The position numbers and the translations under genes were made by a program. Below are positions 1,531 through 56,599 of a stretch of DNA of 64,000 nucleotides, piece after piece. Position 1 is the first letter of the stretch. Each line of letters starts with the position of its first letter. The notes under the pieces are model-generated. The model saw only the letters and a list, made by a program, of their open reading frames with translations. It was not told the origin of the DNA and did no database searches. The DNA is from Tricholomella constricta (lineage: Eukaryota > Basidiomycota > Agaricomycetes > Agaricales > Lyophyllaceae): assembly GCA_013368375.1 (NCBI GenBank), contig JAACJP010000041.1, forward strand, positions 330,774 through 394,773, given 5' to 3'.

Positions 1531-3423
1531 CTCGACCCAAGGCACGATGATTTGCCGTGGGACAGGGTGAGGGAGATTGTGGATAAAGTCGTGGAGCGAC
1601 AGATCCAGCAGAAAGCGAATATGTGGGAGCACAGCAGGATGGCAGTGCTCCGGGATATGATACAAGAACGGGATGTGAGAGCGGCAGAACTAGCGGCCGC
1701 CACGGAACATGGCCGGATGGGGGCGTCGACTGCGAAAAGCGCAGACGACCCGACCATATTTCAATCCCGGGAATGCGGAGCGGACCCAAGATCGACAGTC
1801 GAGAACGGGGAAGGGAACGAGGCATTTATTGCCTCGGTGAAAGCGGGATACGAAGTGGACCCACTGCTCAAGAAAGTAGTGAGCGCGCCAGCCCAACACC
1901 CGCAGTTTAGGGTAGCGAACGGGCTGGTGTGGAGTAAGAATAGAGGTGGAGAGGAGGTGCTATGCATCCCCTCCACAAAGAACGGAAATCAATCATTGCA
2001 CGGGCAGATCATTGACCGCGCGCATCAGGTGGTGGGCCATTTTGGCCCACAACGCACCGCCGACTATGTTCGGCGATGGTACTGGTGGCCACGACTTCAG
2101 CGGGAAGTCGAGGCCTTTTGCGCATCATGCCAGATATGTATGATGACGAAAGGGGAGTACCGAGCACCCGCGGGGTTGGTACATTCCCTACCAATACCCA
2201 CACAGCCATGGGAGTCGATCGGCATGGACTTCGTTGGTCCATTCCCGGAAGTGGACGGGTATAACTACCTATGGGTAGTGGTATGTCGGATGACATCCCA
2301 GGTGCATCTGGTGCCGCTAAACACCAGGACGACAGCGTCAGAACTGTCGTGGATATACATGAGGGAGGTGGTGCGACTGCACGGCCTCCCAAGCTCGATT
2401 GTCTGCGATCGTGACCCTAAGTTCACATCCAAATGGTGGAAGGAACTGCATCGGTTAATGGGATCGACACTGCTGATGTCGACAGTGTTCCATCCGCAGA
2501 CGGACGGAGCAACGGAAAGAGCGAACCGATCGATCACACAGATCATTCGGGCATGTATCCGACCAGACCAAAAGGACTGGGTAGTGGCGCTACCGATGGT
2601 AGAGTTTGCCAAAAAGTCTAGCATCAGCGCGGCAACAGGGCTTGCTCCGTTTGAAGCAAACCATGGATTTTTACCAACGGTAATGACAAAAATAGACTCG
2701 GGGACGAAAGTGCCCTCGGGAGTGAAGGAGTTCGCAGCTAATGCGCTGCAGAATATGGCGGCGGCACACGATGCAATAATCGCAGCGCGCACATTTCAAA
2801 GGCACCACGCGAACGCGTGGAGGCGCGCTGACCCGGTGATAGGGAAAGACGACTTGGTCTATCTATCGACAGACCACGTGTCCATGCCGTTAGGCAGGGC
2901 AGGTAAACTGCTGCCAAAGTATGTGGGCCCGTACAGGGTCCTTGAGGCGTTCCCGGAAACGTCCAACTATGTGTTGGAGTTGCCGGAAGCTCTTAGGAAA
3001 CGCAGGATACACCTGCGATTCCACATATCAAGACTTCGCCTGCATCAGGTGAATGATGACGCACTGTTCCCTAACAGAGCGACGCCAGAGGCTTACGATT
3101 TTGGGGCCCCTGATGAAACTGAATACTATGTCGACGAGATCGTCGGACATCAGTGGAAAGGGAAGGAGGTGTCCTTCCTCGTCAAATGGACAATGGGCGA
3201 CTCTACATGGGAGCCGCTCAAGACATGCGAGGAGCTTGAGGCGCTTGACAGCTACCCCGAACTCATTGGGGTAAAGGACTGGACAGCCCTTCCCCGGCGG
3301 GCGACGGTGACGACGCACGCAAAGACAGGGGCGCGGCGCACCGTGACAAAGTGCGTGGCAGACGGGCAGAAGTCACGGGATGGGAAGAAAAAACCGGCGA
3401 ACGCTGGGAGTCACAAACCGTGA
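1531..3423 (+). CDS. Element 1 pol: integrase with C-terminal chromodomain
   Basis: This frame continues the RNase H frame after the TGA at 1528. Seen in order: a helical linker; the integrase zinc finger (H near 2025 to CASCQIC near 2120); the DDE core with GMDFVGPF (first D, near 2225), VCDRDPKFTS (second D, near 2405) and TDGATERANRS (E, near 2510); the GPY-like C-terminal segment (KYVGPYRVL near 2915); and a chromodomain (EYYVDEIVGHQ, FLVKW, STWEP, near 3120-3215). Integrase inserts the cDNA copy, and chromodomains of this class are known to direct insertion to modified histones. The body is about 620 residues and open, unlike the broken upstream part. A TGA at 3421 ends it. It is a domain-complete remnant of a dead element. 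Confidence 0.9.
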   Translation, partial: LDPRHDDLPWDRVREIVDKVVERQIQQKANMWEHSRMAVLRDMIQERDVRAAELAAATEHGRMGASTAKSADDPTIFQSRECGADPRSTVENGEGNEAFIASVKAGYEVDPLLKKVVSAPAQHPQFRVANGLVWSKNRGGEEVLCIPSTKNGNQSLHGQIIDRAHQVVGHFGPQRTADYVRRWYWWPRLQREVEAFCASCQICMMTKGEYRAPAGLVHSLPIPTQPWESIGMDFVGPFPEVDGYNYLWVVVCRMTSQVHLVPLNTRTTASELSWIYMREVVRLHGLPSSIVCDRDPKFTSKWWKELHRLMGSTLLMSTVFHPQTDGATERANRSITQIIRACIRPDQKDWVVALPMVEFAKKSSISAATGLAPFEANHGFLPTVMTKIDSGTKVPSGVKEFAANALQNMAAAHDAIIAARTFQRHHANAWRRADPVIGKDDLVYLSTDHVSMPLGRAGKLLPKYVGPYRVLEAFPETSNYVLELPEALRKRRIHLRFHISRLRLHQVNDDALFPNRATPEAYDFGAPDETEYYVDEIVGHQWKGKEVSFLVKWTMGDSTWEPLKTCEELEALDSYPELIGVKDWTALPRRATVTTHAKTGARRTVTKCVADGQKSRDGKKKPANAGSHKP

Positions 3424-11523: not shown

Positions 11524-12247
11524 CTATTTTTTACTTTGGCGGGATGACTTCGCTGAACGTTGATCAACAGCTTTTGCCTTTCCTTCGCGGTTTGAAGAAG
11601 TCAGGGCATCATCGTCCATGTTTTCATTGTTGTTGTCATAACTGTCGAGTTCGATGAAGTCATCAGATTGATTGGCGAGGGGAGCAACTTTCATGGCGCT
11701 GTCAGCGTAGGACGAATTCTCAGCGTTGGACTTCCATTTTTGAATCGGGTTGGCCTTTAGTCGTTTTGTTCCGAAGTTATCGAATGCTTTGTCGCTGGTT
11801 TTGGTCGGGGCAATTTTGACAGAGTTGATAGGAAACTCGTTTTCATTGGCGTGATGTTCAATGGGCATAGGGCTCGTGGTGAGTGCACGCATGGTGTGGA
11901 CGTTGGTCTGGTAGATCTGAAGAGGGGAGTTAGATACAATTACGTGACACATGCGATATACATACATGACGAGAGTCCCCGCGTGAATCTTGTATGACAA
12001 AACAATGAAAGGTGACTCTCATGATCACGAGAGTTCCGGCACGGAAAACATCGCTCATGTCCCATGGTTTGACAAGCTCCCCATTAATATCCCGTACATC
12101 GAGTTGAGCAAGACGGGATCGCTCGTGTTTAAAGACGGGACCCCTGTAGTCAGGAAGACGGGAACATGGATAAGTACTGTTCAAGGTTGCTGCTAGGTGA
12201 ACACATTAAGTATATCATTATACATATTACAATTTATGACGAACCGT
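11524..12247 (-). CDS. 3' half of a spliced unknown gene, separated from its 5' half by Element 2
   Basis: Minus-strand exons encode a segment with QLDVRDINGELVKPWDM and RAGTLVIMRVTFHCFV (near 12115-12015). A canonical intron (GTATGT...CTTCAG) near 11994-11946 leads to a final exon (YQTNVHTMRAL... to a Lys/Ser-rich tail) ending TAG 11524-11526. Directly before it, a 52-nt intron (GTTCGT...CACCTAG, with a TACTTAAT branch-like site) would join it in frame to the exon at 25005-25093 if Element 2 is removed. The protein would be about 450 residues in total, with an acidic then basic tail. I do not know its function. Alternatively the two halves are neighbouring genes, because the unspliced frame also stops shortly after the junction. 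Confidence 0.6.
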
Positions 12248-13293
12248 TGATGAGCACCGTCCAGCGCTGTACACTGAACCAACCCATTCTACGGATATCT
12301 ACCGTTGCGCCACGACGAACACGGTCCCAAATGCGACCAAAGCGCTAAACCGACCGACTGACAATACGACCGACCGACCGACAATACGACCAAACGACCG
12401 ACGCACCGACCAAGAGACAAAGTAACTTGGAACGCCAGTTCTCCTCTCTGGGCGCGCGGAGCACGGAACGCCGTATAACCTGTCAACGACCGCGCACGTT
12501 GGTATGCCAAGGTCTCAACCTGGCAACAACCAAACCCGATTTGAAATGATCCTAGGAAACGCCGTTGCCCAGCAGTCACAGGAAGGATCCGGCCGTACCA
12601 CGGAGCTCCGCACCCAAGAGCCACTACCGATCGCAAAGCCACCACCGATCATACATCCGACCCGATGCCGCGAGCCGATCAAAAGCCCCTCTGCCGAGCC
12701 AAAGAGCGCCACACTCTCTAAAAAAAGCGTCGCGCGGTACCAAGCTTGGCGGCGCTTCTCCCAATAAACCAGTAAAACACCTGCCTCGCCGGCTCGCGCG
12801 AGGCGAGTCGGTCGTATTGTATAAAAACATACCCATGTATTACCTACTTCCCCCAGTGAAGTACAGCCCGTATTTTCCCTCACACTCAGAGTGAATAGCT
12901 CGAAACCGTCGTCTCTGTCGTCTCTGCACCGTCCTCATCGTATAAACCGTCGCCACTGTCGTAAATCTCGTAACTGCCGTCTCTGCCGCCTCGTACTCGT
13001 CGCCCGAACCCGTGAGTTCTCCGTATTAACCTCGTTCGTCTCGTTGTCGCACGACCGACACCTAAAGTCGCGTCGCCGACCCGTTCCACTCGGGAAACGT
13101 CGTGTTCCATCGCCCCCGTCGCGTTGTTGTCGGTTCGACTAACTACGAGTCGGATCGTCTCTTACCTTCGTCAAACAACCCTTACAAGCCCTGCACACTC
13201 GCGTGTTTGGGAACTTTTAACACTTCTCGCCCCCCATAGTTGTTAGTTGTTTTGTTGTTGTGCACAGCACCTACAGGCCTTCTAGCTCTATCA
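12248..13293 (+). repeat. 5' LTR of Element 2 (1046 bp)
   Basis: TG...CA ends; nearly identical to 23959-25004. It contains a run of gaccgacc-type simple repeats (about 12350-12415), a GC palindrome (ctcgcc...ggcgag near 12786-12807) and a TATAAAAA box. A reversed, diverged solo copy of the same LTR family is at 42161-43190. Confidence 0.95.
12820..12827 (+). promoter_or_regulatory. TATA box in the 5' LTR of Element 2
   Basis: TATAAAAA about 470 bases before the end of the LTR, with a GC-rich palindrome just upstream; the same box is at 24531-24538 in the 3' LTR. The position fits a U3 promoter. The transcription start is inferred, not seen. Confidence 0.55.
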
Positions 13294-13296
13294 TTC

Positions 13297-13310
13297 TGGA
13301 GCCCACCGCG
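13297..13310 (+). other. Candidate tRNA primer-binding site of Element 2
   Basis: TGGAGCCCACCGCG begins three bases after the 5' LTR. It starts with TGG, which pairs with the CCA end of a tRNA. I cannot name the tRNA from this alone. This contrasts with Elements 3 and 4, which lack TGG here. Confidence 0.55.
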
Positions 13311-13433
13311 AGGGTTTTAAAAGCCACCGCCGAACACGCAACCTCATTCCTCTTGTTCATAAAAACCTACGACTCGTCGACCATTCCACCCGCAACCCGA
13401 CAAGAAGCTAAAACCCGAACCCTCCGTGCCGAA

Positions 13434-16082
13434 ATGCGCGCTGCTCTCGGACAAGCCGACACCGACTCAGAGTCGCTCTCCCCGTTCTTCCGCTCAGTAA
13501 CCCCACACCGCGCGATCCATAACAACCTCAGCCCGCTCTTCTATAGCCCTTCGTCGACACTACCGTCGCCTACCCCGACCGATCAAACACCGATCCCCGA
13601 ACCAACCGCGCAACCCGACCTAGCTTTCGACCCCTTTGCGTCGGAACCTCCTACCACCGATCAAGGAGTTGAATTTAGACTCCCCTATCTATCGCCCGCG
13701 ACCCCAGAAATCTCAGATTCTTCTTCACCGTCGTATTCCCCCTCCCCGTCCCCTATCCCGAAACCAATACCATCTAGCATGGCACAACCACCAATCATTA
13801 TAAAGCCGATGCCCGCACGAGGACAAAGCTCGGCGCCGACGTTCGTGCCCGAACGCGCGCGTGAACTGCGCCGATATTTCTCGGACTTAAATCATCTCTT
13901 CATCGAGTGTAACGTCGTAGATGAACAAGAGAAGAAAACGCACACTACGCGATACACCGACATCGATACCGCGGATCTGTGGGAGCAACTTGACGAGTTC
14001 GCAGTCGGTACCACATATGATGATTGGCGAAAAGCAATAATGGCGCTTTACCCAGGCGCAAGCGAAGAAAGAAAGTATTCAATGGCCGACCTCGACTACC
14101 TGATCAGAGAACGACACCGACTCGGGATCCAGTCGAATAGTGACCTCGGGGAATATTACCGACAGTTCCTTTCTGTTACCCAGTTCCTTGTCAGCAAAAA
14201 CCGACTTTCGATAAACGAACACGACCGCCAATTCCGTCGCGCGTTCCAGTCCGATCTATGGTCAAAGATCCATCGCAGGCTCGAGATCCTAAACCCGAAC
14301 CACCATCCCGACGACCCCTACGCCACGGAAACCGTTCGCGCTGCGGCCGAACATATCCTCCACGGAACAAACGCCGGCCAACGACAGGAAGCGCCATCGG
14401 GCGCGCCCACACAAATTACGATCGCGCCAAGCGGGTCGTTAACGGGCGCGACCAAGTCGCCTAGCACGGGACAGCCCCTCAAGTTGGAGGAGCTCTACGA
14501 AAGAATCAACCTGTTGGAACAACATATCCAACGCTTAGGACAAGACAAAGGAGGCGACGGCGGCCGACCGAATCAGTCACCTAATGACAACTGCCACTTC
14601 TGCGGTGGTGAAGGACACTATATTCCTAACTGTCCCATACATCAAACATACGCGACCAAAGGACGCTGCCGACGAACCGACGACAACAAGATAGGCCTAG
14701 CAAGCGGCGCGCGCATACCGGCGGGAACTCCAGGTCGATACATAAAAGACAAGTTAGACGAGTGGCACAGACGCAACCCCGGCCAAATGGCGACAGGACA
14801 GCTATCAGCGAATGCGAACCCGACCGAAAGCATGATGTTGGAAATACTACAGTTTAACGACGTCACCGACCATGACCTGAAAATCGAGGATCGCATGATC
14901 GTGTTGGAACGAGAACTCAACACCCTGCGCGCAAGGAAAGAGGTGTTCGACGGCGTAGAACTTATTAGCCGCGCACCGCAAAAACGACCCGTCACGGTCG
15001 AAACCGTTCCAGACGCCGACCAACCAAGGATCGCACCAGTCAACAAGTCAGCGCCCGCGTCGCAGCCCGCCTCGGACGCGACGAAAGGCCAAGCCAAGGC
15101 TCCCCCGCCACCGTCCAACATACCTCTGATCCCCAGTACCAAGACCGACGCCACAGGCAATGCCCGCAACCAGACTCCAGTACACCCTTTCTCTAACATT
15201 CCTGAGAACCGATACATCCCCCCTACCACGCGAAACTTAGCCGCCACGGAGAAGGCGAAAACCGACAGTGCGTACCGCACACAAGCGCCCATTACAGATC
15301 CAACCAAATCAACGACTCTATTCGAACGCGCACTCGACGCCACCATACCGGTCACAGTTCGGGAACTCTGCGGGGTAGCGCCAGAGGTTCGCGGAAAGTT
15401 TAGGGAAGCTAATACACCGAAGCGTATCGTCGCCGGCAACCTCACAACAGTATACCAAGAAGTCCCCACGTCGGCGTTCATTGAGGAACTCGACGCACTA
15501 CCTTGCGAATCCAACAACGACAACGCGACGCCACCGCCCGGAGCGCTAGTCACCGGCGACATCTACGACACGTATTACCAGACACTACTACCTGGCGAGC
15601 ATCCGGACCGACTGATCGTCGCAATGGAATCGCATGCACTCAGATCGATCATGATAATGGTCGACGCGAGAGAACAGATAGAAAGCATTGTCGACAGCGG
15701 GTGTCAGATCATAGCCATGTCGGAAGAAGTTTGCCATGGACTAGGGGTCAAATACGACCCAACTATAGTGCTGCAGATGCAATCAGCAAACGGAACAACC
15801 GACCCGTCGCTCGGTCTAGCACGAAACGTACCTTGTACGATAGGAGAGGTCACGCTCTACCTCCAGATGCACGTCATTCGCAATCCTGCATACGATATAC
15901 TCCTCGGCCGCCCGTTCGACGTACTTACTTGCTCTAACGTGAAAACGAGATCCGCCGACGATACGATCATAACCATCACCGACCCGAACACCCGAGAGGT
16001 CATCGCGATACCGACCTTCGCGCGCGGACAACGTCGCCGCCCCAAGACCGACGTAAATTTTCGTATACTCTCGAGGAAATAA
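13434..16082 (+). CDS. Element 2 Gag with C-terminal aspartic protease
   Basis: The start is chosen as the first in-frame ATG (13434); the frame is open back into the LTR, but the upstream codons have no ATG. The product is 882 residues. A Pro/Ser/Thr-rich N-terminus comes first, then a helical capsid-like region (about residues 145-320). A CCHC zinc knuckle follows (CHFCGGEGHYIPNC, about residue 390), then a long disordered linker. At the end is a retropepsin domain (IVDSGCQII with the catalytic DSG near residue 750, and ILLGRPF near residue 825). Gag packages RNA and the protease cleaves the polyprotein. The frame ends 19 bases after a slippery site that leads into pol. Confidence 0.92.
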   Translation: MRAALGQADTDSESLSPFFRSVTPHRAIHNNLSPLFYSPSSTLPSPTPTDQTPIPEPTAQPDLAFDPFASEPPTTDQGVEFRLPYLSPATPEISDSSSPSYSPSPSPIPKPIPSSMAQPPIIIKPMPARGQSSAPTFVPERARELRRYFSDLNHLFIECNVVDEQEKKTHTTRYTDIDTADLWEQLDEFAVGTTYDDWRKAIMALYPGASEERKYSMADLDYLIRERHRLGIQSNSDLGEYYRQFLSVTQFLVSKNRLSINEHDRQFRRAFQSDLWSKIHRRLEILNPNHHPDDPYATETVRAAAEHILHGTNAGQRQEAPSGAPTQITIAPSGSLTGATKSPSTGQPLKLEELYERINLLEQHIQRLGQDKGGDGGRPNQSPNDNCHFCGGEGHYIPNCPIHQTYATKGRCRRTDDNKIGLASGARIPAGTPGRYIKDKLDEWHRRNPGQMATGQLSANANPTESMMLEILQFNDVTDHDLKIEDRMIVLERELNTLRARKEVFDGVELISRAPQKRPVTVETVPDADQPRIAPVNKSAPASQPASDATKGQAKAPPPPSNIPLIPSTKTDATGNARNQTPVHPFSNIPENRYIPPTTRNLAATEKAKTDSAYRTQAPITDPTKSTTLFERALDATIPVTVRELCGVAPEVRGKFREANTPKRIVAGNLTTVYQEVPTSAFIEELDALPCESNNDNATPPPGALVTGDIYDTYYQTLLPGEHPDRLIVAMESHALRSIMIMVDAREQIESIVDSGCQIIAMSEEVCHGLGVKYDPTIVLQMQSANGTTDPSLGLARNVPCTIGEVTLYLQMHVIRNPAYDILLGRPFDVLTCSNVKTRSADDTIITITDPNTREVIAIPTFARGQRRRPKTDVNFRILSRK

Positions 16083-19000
16083 GTCGAGATCACGGCGATC
16101 TTGCACTCCTCCTCGAGTACGACCCACTAAGCTATACCCCGACTGTCCTTTCTTTCTGCGAACTACCAACCGAATTTAATAGCAACGCCACCTACGACGC
16201 GCAACTAGCCTCACTCTACGTCGCGGCATCCGAACTAACCACACCAGCAATCGCCGACCAATCCGTTAATACCAGCTCTACCCCTCTTGAACGAACGACC
16301 CTCTGCACTATTTTACCGAACAACGAGCGCCATAGTGAACGCCACACCCAATCCCTGACCAACGCCGCCACCGACGCCTTCGTTGTGAAAATCAAAGGCG
16401 TACAAACCAAAAAGAAGTACAAACCAGTAGCGCAAAAAGTGCGATCGATCATAGCGAGCTGTCCCGACCACTTCCGAATCGAACGCAAAATATTAGGCGA
16501 TCCTCTCGCCAACATGCCGACCTTGGTTCCTAACCCGCCACCTTTTCAACCCACAGGCCGCTACACCCTAGAACGAAAGAAAGACCTAGACCGCGAACAC
16601 CCGGACTTCCTAACACCCGCCGAACGCGCCATTATGCACGACCTCATGTGTAAACAGAACCTCGCGTTCGCATGGGACGATTCCGAGCGCGGTAGTTTTC
16701 GGCCGGATTTCTTTCCCCCCATCGACATACCGGTTGTGGCGCACACGCCTTGGATCGAGCGCAATATCCCCATACCACCTGGCATCTACGAAGAAGTTTG
16801 CGACATTATCAAAACTAAGCTCGCCGCTGGCGTTTACGAACCGTCCAACTCCAGCTACCGGTCACGTTGGTTTTGCACTCTGAAAAAGAATGGCAAGTTC
16901 CGCCTCGTCCACAGCCTCGAACCGCTCAACCGAGTAACCATCCGACACTCGGGTGTCACTCCAATACCAGACCATGTAGCTGAACAATTCGCTGGTCGAA
17001 TTTGTGGCGCAATGTTAGACCTGTTTGTCGGCTACGACGAACGGCTAATCGCACCATCGTCGCGCGACCTTACCACTTTCCAGACACCTTTCGGCGCGTT
17101 ACGCCTAGTCACCTTACCCATGGGCTGGACCAACTCCGTCCCAATCTTCCACGACGACGTCACTCACATCCTACAACCGGAGATCCCGGACTATACACTG
17201 CCTTATATCGATGACGCGGCTATAAAGGGACCAGCAACTTGGTACCCCGACCCGGACACAGGACTGCCGAAAACACACCCCGACAATGCCAACGTACGAT
17301 TCGCGATCTGGGAATTCTTCAACGATGTCAATCGAATCCTTCAGCGCATGAAGTACTGCGGAGGCACCTTCTCTGGCAAGAAGCTGGTTTTATGCGCCCC
17401 GGAATTTAAAGTCCTCGGACACGTCTGCACGCCCGACGGCCGCATACCCGACGTGGACCGGCTCACTTTGCTGCGTAATTGGAAGTCGTGCGCCACCCTA
17501 TCGGAATTGCGCGCGTTCTTAGGAACGGTCGGCGTGCTCAGGATATTCGTCAAGAACTTTGCTCATCGTGCACACCACCTCGTAAAACTGACTCGCAAGG
17601 ATGCCGTCTTCGAGTTCGGACCCGACCAAATCGCGGCACAGCGCGACATAGTCGAAGCGATCGCAGAAGCTAAACCCCTCGTACCCATCGACTACACCTC
17701 GGACGACCCAGTTATCCTGGCCGTCGACACTTCACACATCGCAGTCGGATTCTACCTCTGTCAAGCCGACCCCGTCGATCGGAAACGACGCAGATACAAT
17801 CGGTTCGGTTCCATCACACTGAATGATCGCGAATCACGATTCTCCCAACCCAAACTCGAATTTTATGGTCTATTCCGGGCGCTTGGCGCGCTACGACTGT
17901 ACGTTATAGGCGTCCGCAACCTAGTCGTCGAAGTCGACGCGCGCTACATTAAAGGCATGCTCTCCAACCCCGACATCCAACCGTCAGCTTCCATAAACCG
18001 GTGGATCGTATCTGTTCTCATGTTCCACTTCGAGCTGGTCCACGTTAAAGGCACGTTCCACGGACCCGACGGTTTATCCCGTCGCCCGCGACAACCCGGC
18101 GACCCGGCCGACAACTACAGCGCAGAAGAAGCCGACTTCGAGGATTGGGTCGACCGGATGCAAGGACTCATGCACATTATTCAACCGCTGCCACGACCGC
18201 CGTCGCCGTTGCATGTGGGCCAGATCTTCGCTATGGCTCAGATCTCAAGTAAGGAGGAGATGGTGGCAGTATACACTGACGCGGTACCACCAGACTCAAC
18301 GACTCACGAACTCGCAGCCGACCCCCCACGACAACCCAGAATCCGTACCGACGACGATACAGGAATAACCGACCCAAATGCGAATTCGACCGACTGGTCA
18401 TACGACGACGTGCCCAGAACCGACGTCGCTAAAGCCCAAGACCAACGCATAGACGCTGTTAGACAATGGTTGACCAACCTAGAACGACCAGAAGGCATGT
18501 CCGATGATCAATACGCCACTTTCATTCGATACGCCACCGGATTCTTCCTAGACGGAACACGACTCTGGAGAAGAGACAGCCAAGGCGCACATAAACTAGT
18601 CGCCCGCCCCAGCGCGCGATTAGAGATTCTACGATCGGTCCATGACAACCTCGGACACAAACGCTTCTACGCGACACGCGCAACCTTGCTTGAACGCTTC
18701 TGGTGGCCTAATGTTCAGGCCGACGTCGTGTGGTTCGTAAAGACATGTCACATATGCCAGATCCAGCAAACAACCAAGGTCCTGATCCCCCCGGTCGTTG
18801 CGACACCTGCGCCACTATTCGCGAAAATGTACATCGACACTATGCACCTACCGGCGTCGAACGGTTTTAAATACATCGTACAAGGGCGCTGCTCCTTGAT
18901 TCACTTTCCTGAATGGCGCGCGCTCCGAAAGGAAAACAGTCGCACCCTCGGCGATTGGATGTATGAAGACATCATCTGCCGGTGGGGCGGACTGCGCGAA

Positions 19001-19825
19001 ATCGTAACCGACAACGGTCCAGCTTTCATCAAAGCCGCCGAACACCTCACAAAGAAATACCACATACACAATATTCGAATCTCGGGCTATAACTCTAGAG
19101 CCAACGGGCTCGTCGAGCGATCCCATTTCGACGTACGACAATCCCTTTTCAAAGCCGCCGACGGAAACGAAAGCAAATGGTCACAATCCGCGTATTCAGT
19201 CTTCTGGGCTGAACGCGTCACGATCCGCAAGCGAATGGGATGCTCTCCCTATTACGCCGCGACAGGAACCCAACCCCTTCTCCCACTCGACATCGTCGAA
19301 GCCACGTACCTACAACCACCGCCCGACTCTATCCTGTCCTCCACCGACCTCTTGACACGACGCGCGATCGCCCTGCAGAAACGAGCGACCGACCTAGAAC
19401 GACTGCATTCAGACGTATACGCAGCGCGACGACAAGCGGCGATTCGCTTCGAACTTAAACACGCCAAAACTTTGCGCGACTACAATTTTAAACGCGGAGA
19501 CCTCATCCTCATGCGCAACACGAAAATCGAGAAGTCGCTCAACCGCAAAATGAGGTCTAGATACCTAGGACCACTCGTCGTGATCTCACGCAACCGCGGA
19601 GGCGCCTACATCCTCTGCGAACTGGATGGCACCGTCTTACACCGGCCTGTAGCAGCATTCCGACTCACCCCCTACTTCGCACGAACCAATATCCTCCTAC
19701 CCGATAGCGCTCTGGACATAGACACCAGGCGACTCAGAGAACTAGAGGCAACAATGATCACTGACGACGAAGACCGACCCGAAGTCGTAGGCGACGACTC
19801 CGATTCGGAAGAAGAGCAAAACTAA
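15938..19825 (+). CDS. Element 2 Pol: reverse transcriptase, RNase H and integrase
   Basis: The -1 frame is open from 15938 (first ATG 16385) and overlaps gag by 145 bases, so translation by frameshift at 16055-16061 is expected. Domains in order: RT with FRLVHSLEPLNRV, LPMGWTNSV and YIDDA (near 17205); RNase H with AVDTSHIAVGF (near 17720) and VEVDARYIKGM (near 17930); integrase with the HHCC finger (HDNLGHKRF to CHICQ, 18640-18760), the DDE core (YIDTMHL, VTDNGPAF, GLVERSHFD, 18830-19125) and a GPY-type module (SRYLGPLVVI near 19560). The end is acidic. The frame is uninterrupted over more than 1140 residues from the ATG. Confidence 0.95.
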   Translation, partial: RENEIRRRYDHNHHRPEHPRGHRDTDLRARTTSPPQDRRKFSYTLEEISRDHGDLALLLEYDPLSYTPTVLSFCELPTEFNSNATYDAQLASLYVAASELTTPAIADQSVNTSSTPLERTTLCTILPNNERHSERHTQSLTNAATDAFVVKIKGVQTKKKYKPVAQKVRSIIASCPDHFRIERKILGDPLANMPTLVPNPPPFQPTGRYTLERKKDLDREHPDFLTPAERAIMHDLMCKQNLAFAWDDSERGSFRPDFFPPIDIPVVAHTPWIERNIPIPPGIYEEVCDIIKTKLAAGVYEPSNSSYRSRWFCTLKKNGKFRLVHSLEPLNRVTIRHSGVTPIPDHVAEQFAGRICGAMLDLFVGYDERLIAPSSRDLTTFQTPFGALRLVTLPMGWTNSVPIFHDDVTHILQPEIPDYTLPYIDDAAIKGPATWYPDPDTGLPKTHPDNANVRFAIWEFFNDVNRILQRMKYCGGTFSGKKLVLCAPEFKVLGHVCTPDGRIPDVDRLTLLRNWKSCATLSELRAFLGTVGVLRIFVKNFAHRAHHLVKLTRKDAVFEFGPDQIAAQRDIVEAIAEAKPLVPIDYTSDDPVILAVDTSHIAVGFYLCQADPVDRKRRRYNRFGSITLNDRESRFSQPKLEFYGLFRALGALRLYVIGVRNLVVEVDARYIKGMLSNPDIQPSASINRWIVSVLMFHFELVHVKGTFHGPDGLSRRPRQPGDPADNYSAEEADFEDWVDRMQGLMHIIQPLPRPPSPLHVGQIFAMAQISSKEEMVAVYTDAVPPDSTTHELAADPPRQPRIRTDDDTGITDPNANSTDWSYDDVPRTDVAKAQDQRIDAVRQWLTNLERPEGMSDDQYATFIRYATGFFLDGTRLWRRDSQGAHKLVARPSARLEILRSVHDNLGHKRFYATRATLLERFWWPNVQADVVWFVKTCHICQIQQTTKVLIPPVVATPAPLFAKMYIDTMHLPASNGFKYIVQGRCSLIHFPEWRALRKENSRTLGDWMYEDIICRWGGLREIVTDNGPAFIKAAEHLTKKYHIHNIRISGYNSRANGLVERSHFDVRQSLFKAADGNESKWSQSAYSVFWAERVTIRKRMGCSPYYAATGTQPLLPLDIVEATYLQPPPDSILSSTDLLTRRAIALQKRATDLERLHSDVYAARRQAAIRFELKHAKTLRDYNFKRGDLILMRNTKIEKSLNRKMRSRYLGPLVVISRNRGGAYILCELDGTVLHRPVAAFRLTPYFARTNILLPDSALDIDTRRLRELEATMITDDEDRPEVVGDDSDSEEEQN
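16055..16117 (+). promoter_or_regulatory. -1 ribosomal frameshift signal, gag to pol, Element 2
   Basis: The heptamer A AAT TTT (16055-16061) is read in the gag frame as GTA AAT TTT. One step back it reads AAA TTT TCG, which is the pol frame. Eight bases later an 8-bp perfect stem can form between CTCGAGGA (16070-16077) and TCCTCGAG (16110-16117), and the outer cgta / tacg could extend it. Slippery heptamer, 5-9 nt spacer and stem are the classical parts of a -1 frameshift site. The gag stop (16080-16082) lies inside the stem-loop. Confidence 0.8.
18245..18260 (+). other. Internal copy of the polypurine tract within pol
   Basis: TCAAGTAAGGAGGAGA is identical to the tract before the 3' LTR (23943-23958). 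It lies between the RNase H and integrase domains and is translated as SSKEE. It may act as a central polypurine tract. Confidence 0.5.
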
Positions 19826-20220
19826 TCGCCATCCTGCGAAACCGTATACCCTTTCTTTTAATCAGCACCTTTCTCACCGACACACCCCGTTCGACCGACC
19901 GAATATACGGACGGCCTATGCAAACCCTCTTTTTTTTCTTTTTCAGTTCCGACCTATTACTGACCATCCGTCGGGTGCCCGATTCCTTAGGGTCAGAATT
20001 CACAACACTCCACTCAATCTCTTTCTCAGGCTCTGCCGCGACTTAGCACAACAAAACGGGCGCAAAGCCGAACACTGGTATTAGATTATATGGCGGTCCC
20101 ACTTAGGAACCGCCCAGACGCAGACCACATCAAAAAAGAAAATATATAAACAAAGGTCGGGCGCGCGACCAAGATACCAAGCGCGCTCCGACCAACCGAC
20201 ACCCCCCCCACGACGCTCGT
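19826..20220. other. Spacer between convergent pol and antisense gene A
   Basis: No gene. It holds pyrimidine-rich stretches and an A-rich segment (aaaaaagaaaatatataaa near 20131-20149). Pol reads into it from the left and antisense gene A from the right, so 3' ends of both transcripts should lie here. Confidence 0.5.
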
Positions 20221-22107
20221 TCACCCCACCACTACATCCCCGCCCTCGCCCTCGTCGCCTTGTTCCCCGTCTACGTCGCCCTCGCCCTCACCCTCAGCAT
20301 CCTCATCGTCGGTGCTAACGGCACTCCCCTCACTAGACTCGGACCCGGCCGCCATCTCATCCACCACCTCCGAGCGCCGCTCTCTCAGCATCCTCAACAC
20401 GTCCACCGTACCTTCAACTTGCAAGTAGATTTGTTGCAGCGACCACTGTGTTATCTCTTGTTGGGACTGCAGGACCTGCGCTTCCTGCACCAGGGTCCGG
20501 AGGAAGGCGTTGCGAGAAAAGAGGGCGCGGTCCACATCGGCGAGGCTGAAGTTGTCGATCATCGAAGTCGACGCCATGTAGCCCAAGCCCTCGAGGTCCT
20601 CGTTCCGAAGCAAGGCTTCGGCTTGAGGAAGCGATCCCTGAAGCAAGAAGCTCGTGCCCATTCCAGCAGAGCCGGCAGACTGGAACATCGCGAGGCGGTG
20701 TGCGACCGCAGCCAGTTCGCGCTCGCGCTCCCGGGGATCCGCCATGAACGGTGGGGGAGAGCGGTGCACCGGGTACATGGGCGCAACGTGGGGCTTTTCC
20801 TCCTCCACATCCTCAACGACCGCGCGCGAGATGTGTTGGCGCCGCGATCGCGAACCCGATGCCTTCGGAACGACGAGGGGGACGCCGTCGCGCGTCGTCT
20901 CGCACTTTTTGGCATGTATCTTGCAGAGCGCGCAAGGACTGACGCCGGGCTTCTGCAGACAATCGACGCCTGCGTCCACGCACCGATCGCACTAGTGGAA
21001 GAGTCAGCGCTGACAGACGCCAAGACCCGACCGATGACCTACCGCCACATCGCGCACCAAGTGGTGAGGACACTCCTTCTTGAAGTCCTCGAGGCGCCCG
21101 AGCCACTTGTCGGTCGTGCGCCGCTTCCTTTTGCCCTTCCCTAACTCCTCCTCGGGGACCTCCACGACCGACCCTTCCCCTTCATCTACGACGTCGCGCT
21201 TGCGCTTACGACTCGAAGTCGTCGCCTCGTCGGACCCAGTGGCGGCAGGCGTCGCACCTACCAAACTAGTTAGGGGCAGACCACTCACAGCGCTAAAGAT
21301 AGGCCCTGATCGGAAGGCGGACTCACGCGTACGAAGCGATCACGAAGTGGACGGCGCAGCCTGTTCAAAAAAAAAAAAAAAATGTGTTAGCAACCGGGGG
21401 AGGACAAAATCGCGTGAGATACGCACGTCGGCTACAGCGCCTTTGCCAGCACGCGACCCGCCGCCAACCGACATACGAGGCACAAAAATAGGAGGCCGCG
21501 AGGATTTGCCTTTCCCCTGGGGCGATGGCGCCACGAGAACGCCGGACGATGCCCCCACGACCGGCGGCGGGATTGCGCCCACGCTACCGTGCCCCTGCCC
21601 CGCCTCCGCCACCAATTCCGTGTCACGCACTTCGATGCCGCCAACATCCGACCGGGGACCCTGCTCGACCGGCGATTCCCCCCCAAGCCCGCCAGATACG
21701 ACCGGTGGCGCATTTCCGGCGCCTCGAGATGTTCCTGATTGAAGACGTCGTTCGCGGCGTCGACGGGTATACTCGTCCTGAAGACGGACAAGCCCAAGTC
21801 GGTCATCTGCATACCAGAAGTCGGAAAACGGACGCACCTCGGGCTCCAGATCCGCGAATTTCTCCGACCACTCCCCGTCGTCCTTGATGCGCGCCCATAT
21901 TTGGGACAACGCCTCCTGCTCCTCACGCCATTCCAAACGCCCGGGGCCCGCCTCTTGTTTCTGAAGCGCGGTCAAGCCGTCCCGAATATCCTCGAGCGCC
22001 TCGAAGTGCTCGGCGCGGGTGGCGTCGTCGGGGAGTTGACACCATCGAATGTAATCGGTGGTCAGATATCGGAGGACGCGCTTGAAGTCCGACACGACGG
22101 TGGTCAT
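20221..22107 (-). CDS. Antisense gene A of Element 2: spliced Zn2Cys6-like cluster protein
   Basis: Start ATG at 22107. Exon 1 (22107-21838) encodes an N-terminal helical region. A 60-nt intron follows (GTGCGT...CTTCAG), then a Gly/Pro-rich linker, and an intron with a pyrimidine tract ending TTTTTGAACAG (acceptor near 21361). An exon ends in WLGRLEDFKKECPHH (to 21043). A 51-nt intron (GTAGGT...CACTAG) leads to the last exon, which opens with six cysteines in the order CX2CX6CX8CX2CX6C, the spacing of fungal Zn2Cys6 DNA-binding clusters. A helical region (RNEDLEGLG, LADVDRAL, FLRTLVQE) and an acidic tail end it. The basic residues usual between the first cysteines are absent. After the third exon begins there is an in-frame TGA, so either another acceptor is used or this copy is damaged. 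Role unknown; a nucleic-acid or chromatin factor is an inference. Confidence 0.75.
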
Positions 22108-22500
22108 GTTGGTTGAACAAGAAACGAGAGGGAACCGAACAGGCAGCCGTCACTTAAAAACAAGAACCAGGACGCGCCACCAAATTTAGTTGCACCGCCA
22201 CCAACATCTCACGCCACACACGCGCCAGTTCTAGAATTTTCTCGACTGGACTCCGGCCCGACTGGGGACAGTCGGCATTTCAAGTAAGGAGGAGACACGA
22301 CCTGTGGGTTGAGCGGAAGCCGACGCCAATAAACCGACACCGCCGATGAGCAATGCGAACTAACATGCGCCGCTCGAAACGAAAAGTCCAGATTATAAAG
22401 AACGACCCAATTTTAGGGCCCGCACGACAAAACGGGTATAGACGGAATACGCGACCGACAACGAGCGCAACCCGAACACAAACACACGACAAACCCGGAG
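22108..22500. other. Spacer between antisense genes A and B, with a polypurine-tract copy
   Basis: About 390 bases. At 22280-22295 it carries TCAAGTAAGGAGGAGA preceded by gggacagtcggcatt. Nearly the same block precedes the 3' LTR (about 23930-23958). Gene A therefore ends, on its 5' side, in the same way as gene B, which supports duplication of a unit made of gene plus tract. The promoter of gene A should be here. Confidence 0.6.
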
Positions 22501-23800
22501 TCAAGGCGACGAACCCTCGCCACCACCGTCGCGTACGCCACCATCGATACCGCTTCCACTGCCGCTGCCCCCACTTCTCGAGTTGTCCATCATAGACGCA
22601 CCAACTAGCTCTGCACGACGGGCCTGAAGCAAGTCAAAGGCCGACGACGTGGACACGACCTGCTCGTAAAGCTGACGGACCGACGAACGCATAATCTCTT
22701 GGCGCGATTCAAGGACTTGAATTTCCTGGACCAAAGTACGCAAGAAAACGGTGCGCGCCGATAGCGCCCGATCTATATCCGCAAGACCGAACCGCGAAAT
22801 CACCGACAACGGCTGGATGAAGCCCAGACCGCGCAAATCTTCGTTACGGAGGAAGTCCTCAGGGCGAAACACCGGCCCTTGATAGAGGAGACCCGCGCCC
22901 CGGTCCGCCGAACCCGCAGAACGAGTCACGACAAGGCGCTGAGCAGTTCTCGCCAGGTCGGGCGAACGGACCTCGACGAACAACGGAGGTGGCGCGCACG
23001 CGTCGCAAGAGCGTCCCTCTGCTAAGCAGGGCACAAACTGGTGCGGAGCCGGCGGAAACGACCCCACCTCGCTCGTCTCACATTGCTTCGACTGAATCTC
23101 GCAAACCGCACAAGCGTCAATCCCGTTGCGCTGAACACAGTCCAAAGCGTAGCCCACACAACGGTCACACTAGCCAACAAATGAGAGGAAGAACAAGATC
23201 GCACGAGAACCGATGACTTACCGCTTCGCTACGAGTGTAATGCTCCGGGTACTCCTCTTTAAACTCCTCAAGACGCTCCAGCCACAAATCGTGTCGCCTC
23301 CGCTGCGCCGCCAATACCGACTCCCCGGAGATCTCGACTACAGACTCTTCTTCGTCCCCGTCCCCAACCAAGGAGGCGCACGTACGATCCCGAACGACAG
23401 GCTCTGCCTCTTCTCCAGCAGAGGCGACGCGAGCAGGCTCCCGAACGACCGCCCGTCGGCGAGGGTAGTCAGACTACCAACTAGCGCGTTAACCCTCGGG
23501 AACGATCAAGCCAATGAAGAGCGAACTTACACTCGGCTGTAGACCCGCGAACCGTCTGGACCATTCAGGGTCAGACGCGACCGTAGACCATACGTCGAGC
23601 AAAGCATATTCTTCGTCGCGCCACGCCCAGCGCCAGGGTTCAGCTGCTGGCGACCTAAGCACTTCGACGCCGTTTAACAAATATTGCAGCACGCGAGTAC
23701 GCTCGTAACGAGGCGAGTCGTCCGACAGCGACTGCCATTCCTCCCAGTCTCGTCCCAAATTGCGGAGAATACGATGAAGATCGACAGGAGGTCCCGACAT
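22501..23800 (-). CDS. Antisense gene B of Element 2: spliced Zn2Cys6-like cluster protein, paralogue of gene A
   Basis: Start ATG at 23800. Exon 1 is 23800-23531; an intron GTAAGT...TTGGTAG leads to exon 2 (23473-23222), which ends WLERLEEFKEEYPEHYTRSEA. A second intron GTAAGTCATCGG...GGCTAG leads to exon 3 (23169-22501), which opens with CDRC and the cluster CX2CX6CX8CX2CX6C. It then has RNEDLRGLG, LADIDRAL, FLRTLVQE and a Gly/Ser-rich tail to TGA 22501-22503. All frames join without stops, giving about 395 residues. Intron positions match gene A. The 5' end lies only about 160 bases from the 3' LTR, so the LTR may supply or influence its promoter. I recognise the cysteine pattern but not the family. 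Confidence 0.8.
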
Positions 23801-23942
23801 AACGATGGGAAAACAAACAAGAACCAGGAAATATATATGTCGCCAACGCGTCGGCACCGCCACTCGCTCCTATGTCCGCCCCTTTTTCCAAGGAGAACAC
23901 CCCCTGACCAATGCGCGGGACCGACTGAGGACAGTCGGTATT

Positions 23943-23958
23943 TCAAGTAAGGAGGAGA
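23943..23958 (+). other. Polypurine tract of Element 2
   Basis: TCAAGTAAGGAGGAGA ends exactly where the 3' LTR begins (TG at 23959), as expected for the plus-strand primer. Confidence 0.85.
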
Positions 23959-25004
23959 TGATGAGCACCGTCCAGCGCTGTACACTGAACCAACCCATTC
24001 TACGGATATCTACCGTTGCGCCACGACGAACACGGTCCCAAATGCGACCAAAGCGCTAAACCGACCGACTGACAATACGACCGACCGACCGACAATACGA
24101 CCAAACGACCGACGCACCGACCAAGAGACAAAGTAACTTGGAACGCCAGTTCTCCTCTCTGGGCGCGCGGAGCACGGAACGCCGTATAACCTGTCAACGA
24201 CCGCGCACGTTGGTATGCCAAGGTCTCAACCTGGCGACAACCAAACCCGATTTGAAATGATCCTAGGAAACGCCGTTGCCCAGCAGTCACAGGAAGGATC
24301 CGGCCGTACCACGGAGCTCCGCACCCAAGAGCCACTACCGATCGCAAAGCCACCACCGATCATACATCCGACCCGATGCCGCGAGCCGATCAAAAGCCCC
24401 TCTGCCGAGCCAAAGAGCGCCACACTCTCTAAAAAAAGCGTCGCGCGGTACCAAGCTTGGCGGCGCTTCTCCCAATAAACCAGTAAAACACCTGCCTCGC
24501 CGGCTCGCGCGAGGCGAGTCGGTCGTATTGTATAAAAACATACCCATGTATTACCTACTTCCCCCAGTGAAGTACAGCCCGTATTTTCCCTCACACTCAG
24601 AGTGAATAGCTCGAAACCGTCGTCTCTGTCGTCTCTGCACCGTCCTCATCGTATAAACCGTCGCCACTGTCGTAAATCTCGTAACTGCCGTCTCTGCCGC
24701 CTCGTACTCGTCGCCCGAACCCGTGAGTTCTCCGTATTAACCTCGTTCGTCTCGTTGTCGCACGACCGACACCTAAAGTCGCGTCGCCGACCCGTTCCAC
24801 TCGGGAAACGTCGTGTTCCATCGCCCCCGTCGCGTTGTTGTCGGTTCGACTAACTACGAGTCGGATCGTCTCTTACCTTCGTCAAACAACCCTTACAAGC
24901 CCTGCACACTCGCGTGTTTGGGAACTTTTAACACTTCTCGCCCCCCATAGTTGTTAGTTGTTTTGTTGTTGTGCACAGCACCTACAGGCCTTCTAGCTCT
25001 ATCA
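23959..25004 (+). repeat. 3' LTR of Element 2 (1046 bp)
   Basis: Same length as the 5' LTR with one base difference that I can find. It is followed by the target duplication ccgt and the 5' half of the interrupted gene. Confidence 0.95.
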
Positions 25005-25800
25005 CCGTTGGTGTCAGCATCTGATTCCTGCGTCTTTTCAGGATTGGGCACTCTTGGCAAGTCCGAGTTCAATGCGCGTTTGCCTACACGTCGCTTGGAC
25101 ACTGCATTTAGTGTAGGTTTAGGGGCCTATAGCAAGCTTCAGAGCAAATAAAAGGAACATATGGTCAACGTACAACATATTTGGGTGCAAGAGTGACGAC
25201 TATGACATTTGGCGCATCGGTCATGTTGCCCCTCTGTTCCACAATACATTCCTTTAGGTTGAACCTCTGAGCTTCAATGAGTAATACAAAACTCTCTCTA
25301 TCACAGATACCCACATATCCAAATTCTTTTTCGTCGGCCTGTACAACAGCGTTGAAGGTTCCAACCTGGTTGATATATAAGGTTTCAACCAGTTTAGTCG
25401 CATTGGTAGGACAGCCAATATGGATGACGTCCTTGACGTGGACGTCGTCCGTGATGGTTCTGGTCTGCTTATTTGTTCCGTCACTGTACACAATTAAGTG
25501 AAATTTATCACTCACTTGTTTGCCAGAACGTCCAGTGTAGAATGAGCCTCTGGCAGACATTCTAGTTCCTTGTTGTTCAGTGCCAATTTCACCAAATAGA
25601 ACTCCAACAAATTCATTTCTTGTCTGGTTGACGTAGTTGAAATTTTTTGACCAGTCTTCAATGCGGCGAAAGAATGTCTTGTTATAGTCTGCAGAAGCGA
25701 TGGCACGATCTCCAAGAGAGAGAATTTCAGAAGACAGTTCATCATAGACACCTTCATCAGCAAGATTGCGGAAGTGTTCTGTGTCGAAGTTCGCATTCAT
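25005..25800 (-). CDS. 5' half of the spliced unknown gene interrupted by Element 2
   Basis: Start ATG at 25800, chosen because homology-like composition starts there. Exon 1 runs through LADEGVYDELSSEIL, FFRRIEDWSKNFNYVNQTRNEF and NVIVVTLAPKYV to about 25175. A likely intron (GTACGT...CCAAG) joins to exon 2 (25093-25005), which is basic (RRVGKRALNSD) then acidic. In the split state the frame runs on into the LTR, adding about 37 residues. With Element 2 removed, exon 2 meets an intron and the exons at 12247-11524. About 240 residues are encoded here. No known domain, signal peptide or membrane segment is seen. The region looks like a repeated basidiomycete family, possibly carried with Helitron material. 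Confidence 0.6.
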
Positions 25801-50802: not shown

Positions 50803-52200
50803 ATGTTGCGTGCAGTAAAGCGCACACGTCGCAAGAAGGATGAAGTCCTTCAGGAAAGTTCTCGTTCACATGCCATGGATGTCGAGACAACAGTCAGGCA
50901 TACCCAGAGGGGTGACATTTTGGAATCCAGGAGTGTCCCTTTGCGCAAAAGGTCACCGGACCCTGCTACATCTGTCCCTCAGGGTGTGCAAACCCATGTC
51001 CAACCCTTTCAGCATTCGGACATTCACTCAACAGAGCTAGATGACACCACTGATGAGGTTGCCCCCAAACGGGCCAAGGTGAATTGTTCTTTGATGTATT
51101 GTGTACATTGTGTACATGTAACTGAATCAAAGCACAGACACAAGCTGATTACCTTCAAGAGTTTGTGAACCATGTTCCAGAGCTGTTGGAGGGGCTCCTT
51201 GGGAGAGAGTACATTGAGAATCATACTCAATGTTCTGATTGTCCCAAGGGCAACTATGGACGTTGGCGTTGCCGAGACTGTCTCAGTGACAGGATACTCT
51301 GCCGGGGTTGCATGCGGACAACTCACAGGGACAATCCTCTACATCGCATTGAGTTCTGGACAGGTCAATACTTCCAGGCAGCTCAGCTGCAGGAGGTCGG
51401 TACCTACTTGCTGGTCCCTCACTCCTCCGGGAAAGCACTCTGTGATACGCTACAGCTGCAACAGGAGCAGTTGGAGAAATACCAGGTGGTATATGATGTT
51501 GAAGAACAGAAGAACCACTGCACAGAGAAGCAAAACGACCCCGCGGGCCCACATGCCAACCCCGCGGACGCTGCGGACATCACCGAGCAGACTTCCTATG
51601 ATGCACAGGATGACAATTATATGACGTGTTTGAGCCGCGCTTATGGTCAAGAGCCAGGATTTCATCCGATAGCTGAGGATGGGTCTACTCTGGACACAGT
51701 TGAAGTTGAAGTTGACGAGGAAGATGACGATGACACTGGTCTTAATGATGACCTTCCGGCGAGAATGCCGCGGCACGATGCATTCAACAATCCTTATGTG
51801 CGCATTGTCCATGTCAATGGAATTCACTACATTCCACTTGTCTTCTGTTCATGCCGCGGAGTCAACCGGGTCAATACAGACCTCATGCACAAACGATTGG
51901 TGCCTGCAAGCTTCACACGGTACAATACACTCTTTACCACTGCAGTCCTTGATGACTATCGCCTTGCAAACCTGGAATGTAAGGCATCTGCATTTCAGTA
52001 TTGGCACAAGCTCAGCCGGACTACGGCTGCAGCAACAAGCTCCGCGGACATCGACAACTTTTATCGCGAACTCCGCCGGCTCTCACGTTCATGGAGATGG
52101 CTCAAGAAGCTCAAACGGGGTGGCTTTGGCAACAATAACAGAGATCCAATGGAGACCACCGCAGGGGAGCTTGCCATCTTTTGTCCAACATGTCCGCAGC
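50803..52200 (+). CDS. KDZ transposase, N-terminal half with CxC2-like cysteine cluster
   Basis: ATG at 50803; exon 1 ends at 51078 (KRAK), an intron gtgaattg...gcacag, and exon 2 starts at 51138. The cluster CSDC...WRCRDC...ILCRGCM...THRDNPLHRIEFW (about 51230-51355) is the CxC2-like motif linked to KDZ transposases. An acidic linker follows, then VRIVHVNGIHYIPLVFCSCRG, LMHKRLVPASFTRYNTLFT, FQYWHKLSR, FYRELRRLSRSWRWLK and FCPTCPQ, the region just before the KDZ catalytic domain. At 52200 it is cut by Element 3; the rest continues at 63126. The enzyme would excise and insert the element in the nucleus. Confidence 0.9.
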
Positions 52201-52691
52201 TGTTAGGGGAACGCCCGTTCACGCCCTCCGACGCTCACCGACTGTCCCCCGACACGTGCGATCGCTCCCGACCGATCGCGCCCCCGACCCCGACGCTCCG
52301 ACCCAAGCGTCGGTGTACATACTTATACATCCCTGTCGCTACCTCCCCTTCCAGCGCGCGCCCGATCCCGACGTCCGACATCCCGACGTCGGTCGCCCGA
52401 CCTCGTGCCCGCGCCCTGAGCCACAAGGATCGGACAGCGTCGGGAACGTGTACATACACGCGCCGCTGCCCATCCGTTATCATTTACGTACCATACACCC
52501 CAGAGAGCCGGCCCTCACGTATCTTACTCGTATATGGTCATCCTCCTGACATGGGGGAATCCTTTACTCTATTCTCATTGGATTCCCCTCTGCCAGGTAG
52601 GTTTACTTACGCTCTCTCTATCGTACATAATATAACATTGGATTCCCCTCTGCCAGCACGACTAAGCTCTGCAGCTGAGGTCGCCCTAACA
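52201..52691 (+). repeat. 5' LTR of Element 3 (491 bp)
   Basis: TGTTAGGG...CCCTAACA ends. It has a TATATGG box (52531-52537) and, about 30 bases on, the sequence TTACTCTATTCT (52564-52575) complementary to the primer site. A direct repeat, attggattcccctctgccag, occurs twice near its end. Confidence 0.92.
52531..52575 (+). promoter_or_regulatory. LTR core promoter and R-like start of Element 3
   Basis: TATATGG at 52531-52537 is followed about 26 bases later by TTACTCTATTCT (52564-52575). If transcription starts about 25-35 bases after the TATA box, this sequence is at the 5' end of the RNA, where a self-priming element needs it. Confidence 0.55.
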
Positions 52692-52693
52692 GC

Positions 52694-52705
52694 AGAATAG
52701 AGTAA
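52694..52705 (+). other. Self-priming primer-binding site of Element 3
   Basis: AGAATAGAGTAA, two bases after the LTR, is the exact complement of TTACTCTATTCT in the LTR. The corresponding pair in Element 4 has changed together (GAG/CTC against GTG/CAC). Confidence 0.78.
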
Positions 52706-56378: not shown

Positions 56379-56599
56379 CAGGTAGGGGCATTACAATGTA
56401 GCGTGTCCTACGGTCCAGCGGGCCCATACATTGTAGCGTACTTGACGGCACCAGCGGGCCCGCTGGAGCGCCAGCGGGGCCCCTACATGTAGCCGTCTGG
56501 CACGGTGCCAGCGGGACCTCTACATGTAGTCGTCTGGCACAGTACCAGCGGGCCCGCTGGTGCTGCAGCGGGCCTATATGGTGCTGCGGGGGCAGCAGG

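Follow-up and report, generated by a model that had tools for sequence, protein, structure and literature searches.

What are two spliced genes doing on the antisense strand of a retrotransposon? The question arises in a 64-kb window (the whole stretch of DNA analysed here) of the 44.1-Mb, 118-contig genome of Tricholomella constricta (Agaricales, Lyophyllaceae), where a first-pass annotation had recognised a Ty3/gypsy element with two paralogous minus-strand genes in the interval between pol and the 3′ long terminal repeat (LTR). That description is confirmed, and the two LTRs of the element are near-identical (99.904% by self-BLAST). Established here are the structure of the two genes, which we call A and B, selection on their frames, their pairing across the genome, a sequence block shared upstream of both, and turnover of gene A as a cassette. 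We propose, at a probability that we put somewhat under one half (roughly 0.46), that this spliced, selected antisense pair encodes DNA-binding regulators that are read from minus-strand promoters and act on a shared palindrome.

Structure of the two antisense genes

Gene B is composed of three exons.

23531..23800, minus strand: gene B exon 1, N-terminal helical domain (spliced frame; AlphaFold2 model, predicted local distance difference test (pLDDT) 91)
23474..23530, minus strand: gene B intron 1, 57 nt (GT-AG, copy alignment)
23222..23473, minus strand: gene B exon 2 (spliced frame)
23170..23221, minus strand: gene B intron 2, 52 nt (GT-AG, copy alignment)
22501..23169, minus strand: gene B exon 3, cysteine cluster and 69-residue helix (spliced frame, model)

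Gene A has four exons, and its first exon is homologous to that of gene B.

21838..22107, minus strand: gene A exon 1, N-terminal domain, homologous to gene B exon 1 (sequence comparison)
21778..21837, minus strand: gene A intron 1, 60 nt, at the position of gene B intron 1 (GT-AG)
21427..21777, minus strand: gene A exon 2 (spliced frame)
21361..21426, minus strand: gene A intron 2, 66 nt, absent in locus L046 (GT-AG)
21043..21360, minus strand: gene A exon 3, basic RKRKR-type stretches, premature stop in the window copy (spliced frame)
20992..21042, minus strand: gene A intron 3, 51 nt, directly before the cluster (GT-AG)
20221..20991, minus strand: gene A exon 4, cysteine cluster, linker, C-terminal helix region, acidic tail and stop (spliced frame)

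The spliced frame of gene B is open in the window copy, as the first-pass annotation had read it, and encodes 396 amino acids (aa), and both of its introns are in phase 0. Among 40 distinct copies, GT opens intron 1 in 39 and AG closes it in all 40, and intron 2 has both in all 40. Introns 1 and 3 of gene A correspond by position to introns 1 and 2 of gene B, in line with the matching introns claimed earlier, and intron 2 of gene A is extra relative to gene B and variable among copies. In both genes the last exon opens, from its first codon on, with the cluster CX2CX6CX8CX2CX6C, which bears out another part of that description. Introns of a retroelement persist only where its genomic RNA is not spliced, and the antisense orientation accounts for their persistence here.

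Gene B is fully open in 31/40 copies. Of the distinct indel events in its exons, two of three break the frame in exon 1, six of nine in exon 2 and one of six in exon 3, showing that part of the copies is damaged. Gene A in the window is not fully open, because of one premature stop in exon 3, and it is fully open in 8 of 11 aligned copies, several of which are closely similar to each other. A database protein from this fungus (P0001, D9615_010527) includes the last exon of gene A of locus L050 letter for letter, and its junction from the exon end ERPIP to CDRC is the one predicted for L050. In P0001 a DUF6534-type sequence is seemingly joined to this last exon of a retrotransposon gene A, and the record is probably a chimeric annotation. 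We also observed a 592-aa open frame through gene A in L049 (C21) and at C41:6128-6856; in L049 this frame crosses the intron before the cluster, that is, the intron is read through.

Selection on the gene frames

The ratio of nonsynonymous to synonymous divergence (dN/dS) across copies, a check that the first-pass annotation had suggested, lies well below 1 in both genes. The median pairwise dN/dS is 0.319 for gene B (744 of 780 pairs with dS 0.05–1.5; 40 copies) and 0.234 for gene A (44 of 55 pairs; 11 copies), the pairs not being mutually independent. Intron variation is about equal to that of third codon positions or higher. Variable sites at codon positions 1, 2 and 3 number 70, 71 and 135 in the last exon of gene B and 99, 95 and 171 in that of gene A, and a chi-square on these counts ignores the relatedness of copies.

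When the six frames are compared, the gene-strand frame has a dN/dS of 0.28 for B (nine copies) and 0.25 for A (six copies), and four of the other five frames give 1.0–1.4. The fifth, which mirrors the gene frame on the sense strand, gives 0.34 and 0.44, yet it is full of stops; the gene-strand frame alone is stop-free in the nine B and six A copies. Coding on the sense strand of the element is ruled out by the stops there and by a dN/dS mostly near or above 1. Constraint on pol is stronger, with dN 0.011–0.049 and dS 0.23–1.18 (11 comparisons, the near-identical locus L002 left out). Selection has clearly preserved both antisense genes.

Distribution among copies and ancestry

Genomic copies were followed by their pol genes, of which 100 of 742 candidates were scored, with 100 matches listed, and 23 partial matches were left out of the gene counts. 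Among the matches listed, 65 are near-full-length at ≥88% identity, and at least 48 of these carry both genes, in agreement with the earlier expectation that other copies of the family would have them. An A-position match is present in at least 53 of the 65, a B-position match in at least 52, and at least one gene in at least 57; eight have neither among the matches listed. None of the 12 scored pol matches below 60% identity has either antisense gene. Downstream of the distant pol copies L060 and L061 there is no palindrome, tract or cluster, and by frame reading this region appears to hold other elements.

A tree of 15 proteins separates the eight A from the seven B sequences by a branch with support of 99/98, indicating that one old duplication preceded the element families; the A proteins of L048 and L050 form long branches in this tree, and their joint placement is unsure. 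In these two loci (family 2), gene B retains the N-terminal domain and the C-terminal region, and gene A retains the cluster.

A search with the last-exon protein of gene B gave no relative in other species (proteins up to about 387 aa), and four spliced proteins gave none among the best 7993 candidates. Alignment of the antisense proteins matched only P0001, from the same species, and IMG/VR gave none.

A shared upstream block and candidate promoters

Both genes are preceded by the same block.

22258..22295, minus strand: block 5′ of gene A, palindrome CCGACTG-N4-CAGTCGG at 22258-22275 and polypurine-tract copy at 22282-22295
23921..23958, minus strand: block 5′ of gene B, palindrome at 23921-23938 and 3′ polypurine tract at 23945-23958

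In gene orientation the polypurine tract reads TCTCCTCCTTACTT and is followed by CCGACTG-N4-CAGTCGG, upstream of both genes. The palindrome occurs 109 times in the 44 Mb of the genome and its reversed control 0 times, and 46 of 50 palindrome sites among those listed lie ≤2.6 kb upstream of an antisense-gene match. A 30-base pattern of the block has 87 occurrences genome-wide, again with 0 for the control. Of 86 polypurine tracts in the fetched loci, 66 are accompanied by all seven palindrome pairs, 11 by six and nine by five; among these last nine, four resemble the copy internal to pol and lack a palindrome, and five are A-side blocks.

The base before the palindrome is A in 44/44 B-side blocks and G in 37/38 A-side blocks (exceptions to the difference are L019 and a listed A-side block at C19:381334). 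This persistent difference speaks against homogenisation of the two upstream blocks, a reading that we reject. The A-side block is conserved although no LTR follows there. In L031 (C33:115374-119036) only ∼470 bp separate the A-side block from a pol-like polypurine tract beyond it, so short a distance that gene A is seemingly deleted from this locus. Two palindrome blocks in opposite orientation were also seen ∼1.3 kb apart at C20:302867-302896 and C20:304147-304176, with no antisense-gene match nearby among those listed.

Zn2Cys6 factors bind paired CGG triplets. The outer bases of the palindrome, CCG-N12-CGG, would be an everted CGG pair and a candidate site for such a factor.

The first-pass annotation had likened the arrangement to antisense genes driven from a 3′ LTR, and a promoter in the 3′ LTR is not favoured by the present data. 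Gene A lies 1.85 kb from the 3′ LTR and has its own copy of the upstream block, and in 38/40 copies of gene B a TATATA is present ≤90 nt upstream of the ATG, between the block and the ATG. For gene A no comparable TATA was found in the copies displayed. In L025 the upstream TATATA is lost and the spliced B frame is still open, and in L029 the ATG is missing at the expected place.

Gene A behaves as an exchangeable cassette

The strongest unexpected result is that gene A behaves as a swappable cassette. With the window element as reference, and the near-identical L002 excluded from the pol and B ranges of family 1, dS is 0.23–0.51 for pol and 0.13–0.49 for B in this family, the two being roughly concordant except in L004 (pol 0.49, B 0.13). 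The divergence of gene A fits the age of pol and B in L002, L003 and L046 (dS 0.03, 0.28 and 0.58). In L005 its dS is 0.73, about twice that of pol, it is larger still in L045 (0.97) and L044 (1.6), and it is very large or saturated in L012, L049, L040 and L047. L050, of family 2, is distant throughout (pol 1.2, B 2.0, A 1.9).

The edges of these divergent segments can be seen in the DNA identity. L040 matches the window at 89.7% identity through pol up to 19827 and at 82.9% from 22492 on through B and the LTR, and only short fragments of its gene A can be aligned, the rest not. In L012 pol is 94.3% identical, and the match restarts at 22163, just upstream of the start of A, at 86.3%. From the divergence of A together with these edges we conclude that A has been exchanged as a unit, with pol and B largely retained. 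Turnover of A alone is not proof of selection for A diversity; old A lineages could spread neutrally by recombination in a large family.

Protein features and structure models

All six cysteines are conserved without exception in 21 aligned members, which were picked for having the cluster, and their spacing in both window genes agrees with what we take to be that of Zn2Cys6 (PF00172), CX2CX6CX5-12CX2CX6-8C. Residues 1–35 of a low-confidence model superpose on Gal4 (1aw6) at 2.0 Å over 33 residues with 30% identity, and on PPR1 (1pyi) at 1.6 Å over 34 residues. The 69-residue helix that is predicted behind the cluster has a block pLDDT of 77–96 across most of its length. Gene A has a basic second half-cluster and an acidic tail, and gene B has fewer basic residues. 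The N-terminal domain is a confident helical fold with no convincing match in PDB (best E value 1.1), a sequence search of PDB gave a best E value of 0.52, and the Pfam family PF04195 (TRP28) was found in none of 21 last exons, 28 first exons and four spliced proteins.

The Zn2Cys6-like character claimed in the first-pass annotation stands for the spacing and for a partial superposition on Gal4 and PPR1, and it is not carried by the Pfam profile. Zn_clus matches three of the 21 last exons at a best E value of 0.024, below the curated cut-off, and is found neither in the four full spliced proteins nor in the window A and B last exons. These results weigh against DNA-binding regulators, as do several others. 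The VIA Z values for Gal4 and PPR1 are 2.5–2.9 and reach 4.9 for unrelated helical chains, the superposition on 1d66 has a root-mean-square deviation of 9.1, Foldseek finds 1aw6 at an E value of 7.5 with no match at 0.001, and the pLDDT of the cluster is about 65. Moreover, the first half-cluster is without the basic residues that are presumably usual in Zn2Cys6 proteins, gene B of the family 2 loci has no cysteine cluster, and 9/40 gene B copies are broken. On the DNA side, the LTR shows no clear enrichment of palindrome half-sites (3 against 0.8 expected, fraction 0.055), and the palindrome is nearly constant while A has diverged strongly, a pattern at odds with tight co-evolution of A and this site.

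Proposed function and alternatives

We infer that the genes are expressed, that their products bind zinc and DNA and dimerise, and what the target and the sign of the regulation would be. Minus-strand promoters between the polypurine-tract/palindrome block and each ATG would drive A and B. The two proteins share a layout of N-terminal helical domain, basic linker, Zn2Cys6-like cluster and a long C-terminal helix that would permit pairing, and most likely they would act in the nucleus as DNA-binding dimers or heterodimers. Their target would be the palindrome (CCG-N12-CGG) that lies next to the 3′ LTR and again 5′ of gene A, and the bound proteins may tune their own transcription and, via the adjoining LTR or antisense transcription, that of the element too. 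A, with its basic second half-cluster and acidic tail, would be the DNA-binding, activating partner, and B, with fewer basic residues and no cluster in family 2, the modulating one. In this way the antisense pair probably helps the element to control itself.

The block, however, can be read as a signal of reverse transcription, a polypurine tract plus hairpin that was duplicated together with the gene, and the proteins as accessory factors of replication that serve nuclear import, integration targeting or chaperoning of the DNA copy. The tract belongs to the block, the element has three copies of it, a 7-bp hairpin is possible in the sense RNA next to the tract, and the confident N-terminal fold has no convincing PDB match; because the palindrome travels with the tract, this explanation stays alive. 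Against it, the hairpin context folds no better than shuffles (sense strand z −0.85 and +0.38), the tract within pol has no palindrome, the A-side block is conserved without a following LTR, and the zinc-cluster-like model points to DNA, so that we consider it unlikely, if a serious contender. The exchange of A bears on a different idea, a module of immunity or copy number by which elements exclude or tolerate each other according to their A cassette. A is exchanged as a discrete cassette among elements with similar pol and B, and this single genome contains several A lineages of old date side by side, both genes being retained; the turnover of A can also be explained by neutral recombination in a high-copy family or by a host arms race, and the palindrome does not diversify along with A, which makes the idea decidedly improbable. 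By analogy with the repressor regions of temperate phages, the same locus may be a transposable immunity region, in which a tandem repressor/activator-like pair shares an operator palindrome and A is the exchangeable part that sets specificity. This analogy is a shade more doubtful again, and if it were true, many elements of similar pol would coexist in one genome because their A genes differ.

That the antisense RNA is itself the active product, with copy control at the RNA level and incidental proteins, would suit genes antisense to the 3′ end of the genomic RNA. A gene-frame dN/dS of 0.23–0.32 and open frames in 31/40 B and 8/11 A copies speak for the proteins, and leave this explanation highly improbable. 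The faintest chance is given to a captured host transcription-factor gene carried as a passive passenger. Its cysteine spacing is what we assume to be that of fungal zinc-cluster factors; both genes, however, have persisted under selection in different families since a single old duplication, and no host paralogue outside elements was recognised among the matches listed, single matches not having each been inspected.

Remaining features of the element and the window

The element is bounded by two LTRs and flanked by a 4-bp repeat, CCGT.

12248..13293, plus strand: 5′ LTR, 1046 bp, TG...CA (self-BLAST against the 3′ LTR)
23959..25004, plus strand: 3′ LTR, 1046 bp (self-BLAST)
13260..16082, plus strand: gag-protease open reading frame (ORF), aspartyl protease, CCHC knuckle match weak (Pfam)
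16385..19825, plus strand: pol ORF, RNase H and then integrase (Pfam RT_RNaseH, Integrase_H2C2; open frame)
18247..18260, plus strand: polypurine-tract copy within pol, without palindrome (sequence match)

RNase H before integrase, LTRs and a polypurine tract place the element in Ty3/gypsy. The rve match in pol is weak (Pfam, E value 0.13), and RVT_1 gave no match in the pol ORF at an E value ≤1, although RNase H was recognised. The open pol frame extends further 5′ (1295 aa between stop codons) and would there run over the end of gag-protease in another frame, an arrangement that suggests a −1 frameshift. The three exact polypurine-tract copies start at 18247, 22282 and 23945; the one within pol is present in L039–L041 too and is possibly a central polypurine tract. 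Rfam at the gathering threshold gave no match in 12000-25300 of the window. Elsewhere, the window contains other elements, with an integrase that has a weak chromodomain match (1552-3420), a KDZ-associated CxC2 protein (51165-52697), a reverse transcriptase/RNase H ORF (54044-56398) and a second integrase ORF (60926-62374).

Relation to known antisense genes and significance

The first-pass annotation had spoken of an undescribed regulator. The role of regulator is our inference too, and antisense genes between pol and the 3′ LTR have been described in plants and in the fungal element Boty (PMC7264820). As far as the portions of the sources used here go, the plant ORFs of this position (aORF-3R) comprise gene23 of Grande, RIRE2, TRP28 of Retand and PvRetro13 (PMC7264820, PMC11963269); the GENE23 protein of Grande is nuclear and gene23 has its own promoter in its upstream region (PMC7264820), and in Retand elements the antisense ORFs code for TRP28 (PMC11963269). 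A fungal case of an additional antisense gene is Boty, from Botrytis and Sclerotinia (PMC7264820, PMC8365987), and in human T-cell leukaemia virus (HTLV) an antisense promoter lies in the 3′ LTR (PMC7264820), HBZ of HTLV-1 being named in PMC11963269.

The present genes resemble the plant ORFs, in these same portions, in lying antisense between pol and the 3′ LTR, in being kept in most copies and in a proposed nuclear or DNA-binding role, and differ from them as tandem paralogues with introns, a Zn2Cys6-like cluster, a palindrome block, exchange of the A cassette and no PF04195. With regard to a promoter of its own and a nuclear protein, as in Grande gene23, the TATATA upstream of gene B and the basic stretches of gene A are hints at the level of sequence. 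The word ‘intron’ does not occur in the main text of PMC7264820 or PMC11963269. Boty likewise carries, in fungi, an extra gene on the antisense strand in the interval from pol to the 3′ LTR; in its case this is one gene in ascomycete elements, and its brtn is likened here by description and not by sequence. The likeness to HBZ is that of an antisense regulator near the 3′ LTR. HBZ is, we assume, a nuclear, spliced bZIP protein; here the cluster differs, and the conserved upstream sequence is outside the LTR. With Gal4 and PPR1 the proteins share the six-cysteine spacing, a partly superposable model, a C-terminal helix suited to dimers and CGG triplets in the candidate site, and they differ in falling below the Pfam cut-off, in the first half-cluster without the usual basic residues, and in being encoded by a retrotransposon. 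In the open-licence literature searched we found no report of a fungal retrotransposon with an antisense gene pair that is spliced or in tandem. Compared with what the consulted parts of these papers describe, the new features here are the two paralogues in tandem and their introns, together with the zinc-cluster-like fold, a palindrome block common to both genes and the exchange of A as a cassette.

Accessory genes in antisense orientation have been recorded in LTR retrotransposons for a long time, with no function known for them (PMC7264820). In T. constricta dozens of two-gene copies are available in one genome, along with a candidate DNA-binding fold, 109 occurrences of a candidate site, and natural swaps of A on a nearly constant backbone. 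These features make the function of such antisense genes directly testable by binding and reporter assays, and they suggest that some retrotransposons carry multi-gene regulatory systems of their own.

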